From: Rubrivirga sp. SAORIC476
GTDB taxonomy: Bacteria; Bacteroidota; Rhodothermia; Rhodothermales; Rubricoccaceae
Direction: 5' to 3'
Assembly (NCBI RefSeq): GCF_002283555.1
Contig: NZ_MVOI01000003.1
Location: 704,536 to 768,535, forward strand
DNA: 64,000 nucleotides
Every line of letters starts with the position of its first letter. The first letter of the stretch is position 1. Position numbers and translations under genes: made by a program. The notes under the pieces were generated by a model. That model had not been told where the DNA came from. It did not search any database and saw nothing but the letters and a program-made list of their open reading frames with translations. Positions 28,705 through 33,090 of the stretch are shown piece by piece.

Positions 28705-28787
28705 CGGTCCGGGGAGAGGCTCGTCCGACGCCGTGCGCCCGGCGGGGTTGCCGCCTCCCAGCCCGGCCCCCGTCTCCAACGACAACA

Positions 28788-28825
28788 CCCCCGGACTCGG
28801 GTGCCGGGGCACCGTCGTCCGGGGG
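28788..28825 (-). terminator. Nested hairpin after the exported-protein gene
   Basis: Outer arms CCCCCGGAC and GTCCGGGGG are perfect, with an inner GGTGCC/GGCACC stem. It lies 44 bp after the stop on the minus strand, and moderately T-rich sequence (GTTGTCGTT) follows, which makes termination plausible. Confidence 0.6.
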
Positions 28826-28868
28826 CGGGCGGGGCGAACGGACAGGCAGCCCCGCGCCTCGGCGGTCG

Positions 28869-29564: not shown

Positions 29565-29615
29565 GGAGGTGTGGGCTGGTGTGACCCCACATTCGGGAGA
29601 TGCCGCCGTCCAGTT

Positions 29616-29672
29616 GTCACGCGCTCGTGAGCGTCCGTCACGGACCACCACCGTCGTGTCACCGGTCGTCAC
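29616..29672 (-). promoter_or_regulatory. Array of four GTCAC boxes (21-21-10 bp spacing), candidate response-regulator operator
   Basis: GTCAC occurs at 29616, 29637, 29658 and 29668, in one orientation. The outermost box extends to GTCACCGGGGA, identical to the outermost box before the histidine kinase gene, where the same 10 and 21 bp steps recur. The array lies upstream of the exported-protein gene and partly inside the 3' end of the sugar-binding-fold gene. Confidence 0.55.
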
Positions 29673-30777
29673 CGGGGACCGACAGGCCGCGCGCAGCGGC
29701 GGCGGCGGGCGTCATCAGCGCGACCGGTCCCTCGTGGATGCCGCCGTCCAGCGGACCATCGAAGACGCGGACCGCGATCACGTTGTCGCCCTCCCGAAGC
29801 ACCGATGCCGGGACGCGGTACACGCGCTCGATCTGCCACTCGTGCCCCTCCACAACGCCCCCCTCCACGTCGCCCGTCGCGCCGACGAGCACGCCGTTCA
29901 CGAACGTCTGGTCGAGGTCGTCGATGCGGCCGAGGACGAGGACGAGATCCTGCGCGGCATCCGCGACCGAGAGCGGGACCCTCGTTCGGTACCACGCGAG
30001 GCCGCCGAGGCCGCGGAAGCCCTGCGGCTCCCACGTGCCCGGCACCCGGATCGACGTCCAGGTGCGGTCGTCGGTGGCGGGGTCGGCGTTTCGAGGGTCG
30101 TCGCCGGGCGAGAAGCGCCAGTCGCCCGCGAGGTCGGCCACGGGGGGAATGCGCTCCGGGTTGCGCGCTGTCGGCACCGCCAGGGCGACCGGCCCTTCGA
30201 GGATGCCGCCCTCCAGCCCGGCGTCGTACACGCGAACGGTCAGGTCGTTGGGCGCGTCGCGGCGGAGGAGCTCCGGCGGAATGCGGTACGTCCGGAAGCC
30301 GAAGTAGGCCGTCTTGTAGTACGGCGGCATCCGCCCGCTCCCGCCGATGCGCGTCCCGTTGAGCCACACCTCGTCGGCGTCGTCGATGCGGCCGAGGAGC
30401 AGGAAGGGCGGCTCCATGCGGACCACGTCGGCGGTCTTGGCGTCGAGCGAGAACGAGGTCCGGTACCACGCGAAGCCGTCGTAGCCGGGGTAGCCCTGGT
30501 CCTCCCAGGCGCCGGGCACGCGGATCGGCGCCCAGCTGCTGACGTCAGCGGAGTCCGGGACGTCCCCGAGGCGGGCCTCCCAGGCGCCGGACAGGTCGAG
30601 CAGCGTCGTCCAGTCCTCGGGCGAGGGCGGCCGGGCGGCGTCTGCATGGAGGGCCCAGTCCTTCGTGTCGCGCTCGAAGGCCTGGCGCCCGCGCTCGGCG
30701 AGGTAGTAGACGACCCCGGTGACGGCGACCGACACGACGAGGGTAAAGAGCAGGGTCAGGAGGAGGCCGCGCTTCAT
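29659..30777 (-). CDS. Membrane-anchored protein with two galactose-binding-like (glycoside hydrolase 2 N-domain) folds
   Basis: A 372-residue periplasmic protein held by one N-terminal helix (about 4-27). Two jelly-roll domains follow (about 60-210 and 215-365), each of the type found at the N-terminus of family 2 glycosidases: L-G-W-x3-GD, ITVPG-WE-QG, WYRTxF/V, LLLGRIDDAD-WLNG. There is no TIM-barrel or catalytic acid, so it is not an enzyme on this evidence. It overlaps the response-regulator gene by 4 bp (ATGA) and forms the third gene of a kinase-regulator operon. I infer a role in sensing or presenting a carbohydrate ligand at the membrane, with uncertain mechanism. Confidence 0.82.
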   Translation of the reverse strand: MKRGLLLTLLFTLVVSVAVTGVVYYLAERGRQAFERDTKDWALHADAARPPSPEDWTTLLDLSGAWEARLGDVPDSADVSSWAPIRVPGAWEDQGYPGYDGFAWYRTSFSLDAKTADVVRMEPPFLLLGRIDDADEVWLNGTRIGGSGRMPPYYKTAYFGFRTYRIPPELLRRDAPNDLTVRVYDAGLEGGILEGPVALAVPTARNPERIPPVADLAGDWRFSPGDDPRNADPATDDRTWTSIRVPGTWEPQGFRGLGGLAWYRTRVPLSVADAAQDLVLVLGRIDDLDQTFVNGVLVGATGDVEGGVVEGHEWQIERVYRVPASVLREGDNVIAVRVFDGPLDGGIHEGPVALMTPAAAAARGLSVPGDDR

Positions 30778-31463
30778 GGCAGGAACTTGTAGCCGACGCC
30801 GTGGACCGTCACGAAGTGGCGGGGGCGGGCCGGGTCGGGCTCGGCCTTCTGGCGCAGCTTGAGGACGAAGTTGTCCACGGTGCGGGCGGTCGGCGCCACG
30901 TCGGTGCCCCAGACCTCGTCCAGCAGTTCGTCGCGGGTGACGACGGCGCCGGGGCGGGCGACGAAGTGGCGCAGGACCTCCACTTCCAGGTGCGTCATCG
31001 GCGTGTCGTCTCCGTCGGAGGTGGCGGTGTACGAGCCGAGGTCCACGCGGAGGCGGCCCACCTCGATCACGTCGCGGGCGGGGCCGCGCGTCGCCTCGGC
31101 GCGGCGGAGGACCGCCCGGATGCGGGCCAGCAGCTCGCCCAGCCCGAACGGCTTCGTGACGTAGTCGTCGGCGCCGAATTCGAGGCCGCGGACGGCGTCG
31201 AACTCCTCCGCCTTGGCCGTCAGCAGGATCACCGGCGTGCGGACGCCCGCGGCCCGCGCCTCGCGCAGCACGTCGAAGCCGGACCGCTTCGGCATCATCA
31301 CGTCGAGGACCACCAGCCGGTACGTGCCGCCGAGGACCTTCGCCAGCGCCTCCTCGCCGTCGGCGGCTTCCTCGACGGCGTAGCCCTCGAACTCCAGGTT
31401 GTCGCGGAGCCCCTCGCGCATGGCGCGCTCGTCGTCGACGATCAGGATGGGCAGGTCAGGCAT
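30774..31463 (-). CDS. OmpR/PhoB-family DNA-binding response regulator
   Basis: A 229-residue two-component regulator. The receiver domain (about 4-120) has the acidic pocket Asp10-Asp11, the phosphorylation site Asp54 in VVLDVMMP and Lys104 in YVTKPF. A winged-helix DNA-binding domain follows (about 130-229; LTH-LEVEVLRHFV, RTVDNFVLKLRQK, VHGVGYKF). It overlaps the kinase gene by 8 bp and the next gene by 4 bp, so the three genes are one operon. Direct GTCAC repeats before the operon and before a downstream gene resemble binding sites for this family, whose members often recognise direct repeats near 10-11 bp spacing. Confidence 0.95.
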   Translation of the reverse strand: MPDLPILIVDDERAMREGLRDNLEFEGYAVEEAADGEEALAKVLGGTYRLVVLDVMMPKRSGFDVLREARAAGVRTPVILLTAKAEEFDAVRGLEFGADDYVTKPFGLGELLARIRAVLRRAEATRGPARDVIEVGRLRVDLGSYTATSDGDDTPMTHLEVEVLRHFVARPGAVVTRDELLDEVWGTDVAPTARTVDNFVLKLRQKAEPDPARPRHFVTVHGVGYKFLP

Positions 31464-33021
31464 GGGTCGGGAGGGCGATCTGAAACACGCTGCCGCCACC
31501 CTCGCGGGTGCGGACGGCGGCGGCCCCGCCGTGGGCGACGGCGATGCGGCGGACGAGGGCGAGGCCGAGGCCGGTGCCCTTGGCGGTGTGGACGAGCCCG
31601 TCTGCGCTCTCGGGCTGGACGCGGACGAACGGGTCGAAGACGCGCTCGCGGTCCGCCACGGGGATGCCCGGGCCGCGGTCGGCCACCTCGGCGACGGCGT
31701 GCCCTCCTTCGGCCCGGACCGACACCTCCACCGGCCCCGCGCCGCCGTACTTGACGGCGTTGTCGAGCAGGTTGACGAGCGACTCCGCGAGTGCGTCGCG
31801 GTCGCCGAGAACGGGCAGCGGGCCGTCGGCCGGGCGGACGGTCAGCGTGCACCCCTCGCGCTCGACGACGGCGCGATACCGCTCGGCGATCTCCCCGACG
31901 AGCCCGCCGAGGTCAAGGGGCTCGCGGGCGATCTGCACGGTGCCGCGCTCGAAGCGGCTGAACTGGAGCACGTTGCCGACGAGGCGGCTCAGGCGCTCGG
32001 CCTCGGCGACGAGCGTGGCGTAGTAGCGTGGCTTGCGGTCGTCCGGCACGCGACCCTCGGCCAGCGACTCGGCGTACATCCGGATGAGCGCCAGCGGCGT
32101 CCGCAGTTCGTGGCTCACGTTCGAGACGAAGTCCTCCCGGAGCCGCGCCACCTCGACCTCGCGGCGGACGCCCCGCCACGCGAACCACGCGCCCGCGCCG
32201 AGCACCAGCGTCACGCCGCCGAACAGCACCAGGCTCTGGAATGCCCGTCGCTGGAGCGCTTCTTCCACTGATCCTGCGCCCGCGCGGGCGCCGACGGAGG
32301 TCGCGGGCAGCAGCCACAACGGCCGCTGGCGCTCGACGTCCGCCCAGTCGAGGTCGGTCGTCCCGACGGGCTCGCCGCCGCGGAACACGCCCAACGCGAC
32401 GCCTCCCCGGCCGACCTCCCGGAGCTTCGGCATTACCACGGCCGAGACGAACGGGTCGGGGTCGATCACCATGCACAGCACGCGCGGCGGGCCGATCGCG
32501 TCGCGGCTGCTGGCGCCGTCGGCAACGAACACGAGGCCGAGCCGACCGCCGGGCAGCGTTGCGGGCTCCAGCTTGCGGTAGCCCTGCTGGTTCTGCGCCA
32601 CGAGGCGCCGGATGGACGGCAGGCCGATGGCCTCCGCGAGGACCAGCGTGGTGTCGGCGGCCTCGCCGGGCAGCGTCAGCACCTGCTGCGTGGCCAACGC
32701 GGTGTCCGCGACGACGACGGCGCGCACGCCCGGACGCTCGGTCAGGAACTCCATGACGGGGCCGGGCAGCAGGTCGGTCGGTGCCCCCTCGGCGCGAATC
32801 CAGGCCAGTTGCTCGGCCCACGACGAAGCCACGTCCCAGGCGCTCTGGTTGACCGAGAAGAGGAGCCCGTCGAGTTGCCCATCGCGGATCTCGGCGAGCT
32901 GCGCCTCGCTCTCACTCTGCACGAGACCCTGCAGCACCGCGAACGCCACCGCGGGCACGATGGCGAGGGCGAGCAGGGCGCCTGCCAGCTGGCGAAGCGC
33001 GCGGGGAGAGGTCGGGGTCAC
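31456..33021 (-). CDS. Membrane sensor histidine kinase
   Basis: A 521-residue two-component sensor. A first membrane helix (about 10-30) and a second (about 265-285) enclose a periplasmic sensing domain of about 230 residues with no family I recognise. The dimerisation domain has the H-box SHELRTP with His304, and the ATP-binding domain shows N-box [11 protein letters not shown]1 DRGPGIP, F-box VFDPFV and G2 GTGLGLALV. The start is a GTG lying 4 nt after a TAGTTTCG promoter-like element, so the message may be leaderless or nearly so. Three GTCA(C/G) boxes just upstream point to autoregulation by the cognate regulator encoded next. Confidence 0.94.
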
Positions 33022-33025
33022 GGCT

Positions 33026-33033
33026 CGAAACTA
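33026..33033 (-). promoter_or_regulatory. TAGTTTCG, -7-like element for the histidine kinase operon
   Basis: The minus-strand octamer TAGTTTCG fits TAnnTTTG at most positions and lies 4 nt before the GTG start, which would give an almost leaderless mRNA. The nearest GTCA box is about 21 bp further upstream, a distance suited to an activator contacting polymerase. Confidence 0.45.
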
Positions 33034-33054
33034 GCCGGACGCCCGCGCACGCCT

Positions 33055-33090
33055 GTCAGGCCGAGGTCCCGGGTTGTCACGAGATGTCAC
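33055..33090 (-). promoter_or_regulatory. Three GTCA(C/G) boxes (21 and 10 bp spacing), candidate operator of the two-component operon
   Basis: GTCAG at 33055 and GTCAC at 33076 and 33086 lie on one helical face. The same 10- and 21-bp steps, and the same outer extension GTCACCGGGGA, occur at the second array upstream of the exported-protein gene. CTGTCA here also resembles the PhoB half-site. Confidence 0.6.

Follow-up and report, generated by a model that had tools for sequence, protein, structure and literature searches.

Phased TGACA half-site arrays as predicted operators of an OmpR/PhoB-type two-component system extending across the Bacteroidota

In Rubrivirga sp. SAORIC476 (Rhodothermales), a sensor kinase operon and a nearby gene for an exported protein are each preceded by a phased array of short direct repeats that read TGACA towards the gene. 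These arrays are very probably the operators of the adjacently encoded OmpR/PhoB-type response regulator, which would bind the tandem half-sites and activate its own operon (in this genus) together with genes for exported proteins. To our knowledge, few Bacteroidota regulators have a known operator. Here, half-site, phase, distance to the −7 element, regulator and targets are predictable from sequence for dozens of genera, so that the regulon can be tested directly and an unstudied module associated with the envelope becomes accessible. The DNA analysed is a stretch of 64,000 nucleotides, hereafter the window, to which coordinates refer unless a contig is named; the genes and array elements described in it lie on the minus strand.

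The gene set is transcribed in the order kinase, regulator, P3, P4. The kinase gene (31456–33021; 521 aa, GTG start at 33021) encodes a sensor region flanked by two predicted membrane helices, followed by HisKA and HATPase_c domains (Pfam, 7.9e-18 and 6.6e-26, respectively). The structural model of the sensor region is of low confidence (pLDDT 66, two sequences); several of its best matches are dCache-type ligand-binding domains, which are weak (E>0.001, TM about 0.34), and the naming of a ligand from this model was dropped as the model is too weak. The regulator gene (30774–31463; 229 aa, recognition helix TARTVDNFVLKLRQK) encodes receiver and winged-helix effector domains that both exceed the Pfam cut-offs (Response_reg, E=8.7e-31, 106.8 versus 30.2 bits; Trans_reg_C, E=2.3e-20, 72.9 versus 26.2 bits). 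The P3 gene (29659–30777; 372 aa), whose start overlaps the stop of the regulator gene, had been left unmentioned in the initial annotation, which named the regulator and the exported-protein gene on either side of it. P3 has an N-terminal membrane segment and, in the Pfam search, is made up solely of two jelly-roll-like domains of the GH2-N type. Its match to Glyco_hydro_2_N, the sugar-binding domain of glycoside hydrolase family 2, lies above the cut-off (38.1 versus 28 bits), the catalytic TIM-barrel domain of that family is absent (Pfam, E<=0.01), and the jelly roll of sialate O-acetylesterases comes closest among solved structures (E=1.7e-23). P4 (28869–29564; 231 aa) starts with a signal-peptide-like sequence and gave no family in the Pfam search. 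Since the kinase, regulator and P3 genes overlap, they are probably carried on a single transcript. Downstream of P4, before an ABC-transporter ATPase gene of the same orientation, lies a G+C-rich inverted repeat (28770–28840), possibly a terminator.

In the direction of transcription, the kinase promoter reads TGACA-TCTCG-TGACA-ACCCG-GGACC-TCGGCC-TGACA, followed after 20 bp by TAGTTTCG. The boxes reported earlier on the forward strand (GTCAG at 33055, GTCAC at 33076 and 33086), with a step of 10 bp and then one of 21 bp towards the gene, were all located. The repeats are best described, however, by the unit TGACA read towards the gene, and the 21-bp step, although right as a spacing, spans a further half-site, GGACC here and nnAC in relatives. 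The array thus comprises TGACA at 33085–33089, TGACA at 33075–33079 (step 10), the weak GGACC with the AC core kept at 33065–33069 (step 10) and TGACA at 33054–33058 (step 11), the last of which is predicted to occupy −37 to −33. The sequence suspected to be the −7 element of this array, TAGTTTCG, lies at 33033–33026, exactly 20 bp past the fourth half-site, and the N20 spacing is kept in relatives. In a flavobacterium with mapped transcription starts, TAnnTTTG occupies positions −12 to −5 (PMC9723704); by this rule, the +1 of the kinase transcript would coincide with the first base of the GTG start codon (33021), and a leaderless kinase mRNA is, therefore, predicted. The gap of 4 bp between the −7 element and GTG recurs in both same-genus relatives having the operon (G001, G003).

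The array before the exported-protein gene (29615–29671) has six positions in the phase 0, 10, (20), 31, 41, 52, namely TGACG at 29671–29667, TGACA at 29661–29657, a weak GTGGT at 29651–29647, TGACG at 29640–29636, TCACG at 29630–29626 and TGACA at 29619–29615; the same six-position layout is present in G029 (L116) and G015 (L264). All four GTCAC boxes given previously (29616, 29637, 29658, 29668) lie at these places, the additional 21-bp step included, but the box at 41 bp (TCACG) had been overlooked. At the expected 20 bp from the last box, the −7 candidate GAATGTGG (29587–29594) matches weakly, which makes this promoter less certain; it is also without a good third half-site. The TGA stop of P3 forms the first three bases of the half-site at 29657–29661, and at loci L115 and L116 the stop of the regulator gene likewise lies inside a GTGAC box. 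Both outer boxes do read GTCACCGGGGA, as had been pointed out; the extension is not conserved in relatives, hence probably incidental, and was rejected as a functional feature.

Conservation at orthologous promoters had been set beforehand as the test of the boxes, and the same half-site and phase recur within the genus, in the order's other families and in many families of the phylum. In G001 and G003, the kinase array is exactly in phase. In other families of the order (G009, G013, G015, G017, G029), the regulator and P3 genes have an array between them, with a TAnnTT −7 element 20–21 bp beyond it, and G017 and G029 additionally possess a second version with 10/10 steps before the kinase and a longer version before the exported gene. 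When the genome of the window and 11 relatives were searched with up to 3 mismatches, every match fell within this operon and the reversed control gave 0. The ancestral array is TGACA-N5-T(G/T)ACA-N5-nnAC-N6-TGACA, followed after 20 bp by the −7 element TAnnTTTG.

A pattern defined on the order relatives was then applied, at the DNA level only and with up to 2 mismatches, to 395 Bacteroidota genomes, 43 of which contain array matches. For the genomes given as G handles, the attribution to Bacteroidota is based on the TAnnTTTG element, on gene content and on the named contig L031. An independent protein search for P3 yielded full-length orthologs in 41 of the 395 genomes, four single-domain genomes being set aside. 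Arrays are present in 31 of the 41 genomes with full-length P3 and in 12 of the 354 without it (Fisher p=1.1e-27); considering that the reversed pattern finds matches in 14 of 395 genomes, these 12 look like background. Looser arrays are found at most of the ten remaining P3 genes, at four of them by a relaxed scan and at three more as TTACA-type versions seen by eye in the upstream sequence. At the P3 genes of G274 and G439 (L257, L258), neither the relaxed scan nor the by-eye check revealed a recognisable array. In the 43 aligned arrays, the operator half-sites lie at 0, 10, 20 and 31; positions 22–23, which had been left free in the search pattern, are A (98%) and C (95%), so that the 21-bp step does contain a third half-site. 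Among named contigs searched with the kinase, mostly other kinases were obtained; only L031 holds a full ortholog, and its array has diverged.

The genes behind the arrays encode P3 at 26 loci and small exported proteins, which group by sequence into three families with 16, 7 and 6 members, the last corresponding to five loci because one array was counted twice; the exported-gene array of the window itself was below the cut-off of the script. A match to HEAT repeats was obtained for one protein of the largest family. The third family consists of P4-type proteins, which are preceded by this array in other members of the order as well. The kinase-promoter array is confined to this genus, apart from its 10/10 form, which two related genera possess. 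It had been proposed that the kinase operon and the exported-protein gene are under common control; an array does precede the kinase here, but in most relatives it precedes the jelly-roll gene or the small exported gene instead. Ancestrally, control thus seems to have been exerted on P3 together with a small exported protein, and the placement of an array at the kinase seems to be a lineage-specific change. Arrays also occur far from the operon. In G015, a perfect six-position array (L264, C1:2924893), about 1.5 Mb away, lies ahead of the gene for an exported protein that has two P4-like domains (P4 profile, E=1.1e-37), and in G485 an unlinked array (L175/L267, C3:836199) stands upstream of a gene whose exported product carries a Por_Secre_tail domain (type IX secretion). 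In every sampled genome that has an unlinked array, the regulator is encoded at another locus. The arrays following targets that are unlinked from the regulator gene lend support to the earlier suggestion that the regulator, presumably by binding, controls both units.

Three other readings have to be weighed against control by the encoded regulator. A GC-rich genome might produce such boxes by chance or through its codons, as could be suggested by the abundance of GTCAC pairs, of which 358 with gaps of 2–31 exist in the genome, and by the partial overlap of the second array with the end of P3. Indeed, such pairs alone are undiagnostic and were discarded as a genome-wide regulon finder because they are too common. 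The phased arrangement, however, is a different matter. In 200 sequences generated from the window by a first-order Markov model, no three-box chain with steps of 10 or 21 arose. GTCACN16GTCACN5GTCAC has a single match in the genome (4.48 Mb), with 0 for the reversed control, and TGACAN5TGACAN16TGACAN20TANNTT, with up to 3 mismatches, also has one, at the kinase promoter (reversed control 0). As the array is kept across the phylum in AT-rich and GC-rich genomes alike, the GTCAC boxes are not due to chance, a reading that hardly deserves any credence. It is also quite improbable that a transcription factor other than the encoded regulator binds the arrays. Relatives of OmpR and PhoB do share similar half-sites and recognition helices, and paralogs are present in the genome, but array and regulator co-occur, whether linked or unlinked, and the genomes in which the operon is absent (G002, G004, G007) are without an array match at up to 3 mismatches. 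When the regulator was sought in 14 P3-containing genomes in which it is not adjacent, it was found elsewhere in 12 (families f22, f27, f45; E<=3e-69), with the helix RT[VI]DNFI[LV][KR][LI]RQK throughout and the kinase on the flank in 11 of these 12. The array-less G274 and G439 gave weaker matches only; in these two genomes, P3 stands without an array and without a close regulator ortholog, and P3 can, thus, exist outside the regulon. Helix TARTVDNFVLKLRQK is nearly invariant in orthologs at array loci and unlike that of the paralogs in the genome of the window. Its signature RT[VI]DNF[IV] is also found in some paralogs of other genomes and in regulators of other phyla, so that specificity for the array is not proven by it. 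RTVDNF-like regulators beside related kinases, without P3, were encountered in Myxococcales and Planctomycetota contigs (L032–L060 and others).

Control by the encoded regulator, as we picture it, would begin with a signal sensed by the kinase, upon which the regulator would be phosphorylated and form tandem dimers on the DNA, arranged head-to-tail. The half-sites to be occupied recur every 10.5 bp or so, strong TGACA alternating with weaker nnAC, and number four at the kinase promoter and six at the exported-gene promoter. Because the last half-site overlaps the −33 region and is followed by the −7 element after 20 bp, the most likely outcome of binding is contact with RNA polymerase and activation of transcription. 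The same overlap with −33 would also allow bound protein to block the polymerase, with phosphorylation relieving or strengthening the block, yet such repression through the arrays is unlikely. Repressors tolerate varied positions, whereas the distance from the last half-site to the −7 element is nearly constant at 20–21 bp over many families, which fits polymerase contact, and PhoB binds as head-to-tail dimers to sites overlapping the −35 region of a promoter that it activates (PMC3348028). Activation is, thus, the most likely mode, as argued from position and family likeness only. In this genus, the regulator would accordingly switch on the kinase–regulator–jelly-roll operon by positive autoregulation and, via the second array, the exported protein; in most array-carrying Bacteroidota, it would act through arrays directly before the jelly-roll gene and the small exported protein. 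More speculatively, the envelope protein with two jelly rolls and the small exported protein, as the main regulated products, might act on the kinase in return, from the outer side of the inner membrane, serving either as an accessory sensor or as a feedback brake, so that a phylum-wide module would monitor cell-surface sugar or the state of the envelope with a very small private regulon; we regard this extension as possible, though rather doubtful.

In the open-access literature, outside of which many journals lie, no account of a Bacteroidota system having this operator or this set of genes was found, and TGACA in two Porphyromonas papers turned out to belong to primers instead of an operator. 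The sensor/regulator pair is an uncharacterised one, an OmpR/PhoB-type system of a familiar kind; control of both units by its regulator is well supported by sequence comparison and extends to a phylum-wide regulon. None of the named equivalog cut-offs shown (YycF, MtrA, PhoB, RpaB and others) is reached by the regulator, which is, therefore, filed under none of them. Rejected assignments are YycF/WalR (198.5 versus 340 bits), MtrA (193.8 versus 300, the second-best NCBIfam score), PhoB (191.6 versus 296.2 for TIGR02154; 189.5 versus 270 for NF053854) and RpaB (187.5 versus 330).

YycF/WalR and RpaB, whose models are among the best-scoring ones for the regulator, use similar direct-repeat half-sites; the targets seen here, in contrast, are not cell-wall or photosynthesis genes. 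The half-sites of the Pho box are spaced by a uniform 11 bp, whereas the spacing here is 10/10/11, the half-site is TGACA towards the gene and the regulon is without phosphate genes. A Pho-like 11-bp pattern (TGTCACN5TGTCAC, one mismatch) gave scattered matches and none at this operon, and the genome of the window has no full-array match outside the operon, hence none at phosphate-uptake genes. Shared with the PhoB/Pho box system of E. coli are the type of regulator, the tandem direct-repeat half-sites about one helical turn apart and the overlap of the operator with the −35/−33 region (PMC3348028). MtrA of Actinomycetota is likewise a related regulator recognising short direct repeats, namely two units of 6–7 bp with a spacer of about 4 bp (PMC5650626, PMC10609481), but it uses loose site pairs at many genes, while long rigid arrays at very few genes are found here. 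Compared with the Bacteroidota sigma-A promoter (TAnnTTTG), finally, the −7 element and its position relative to the array are alike (PMC9723704), whereas the place of the −33 element is occupied by a regulator half-site.
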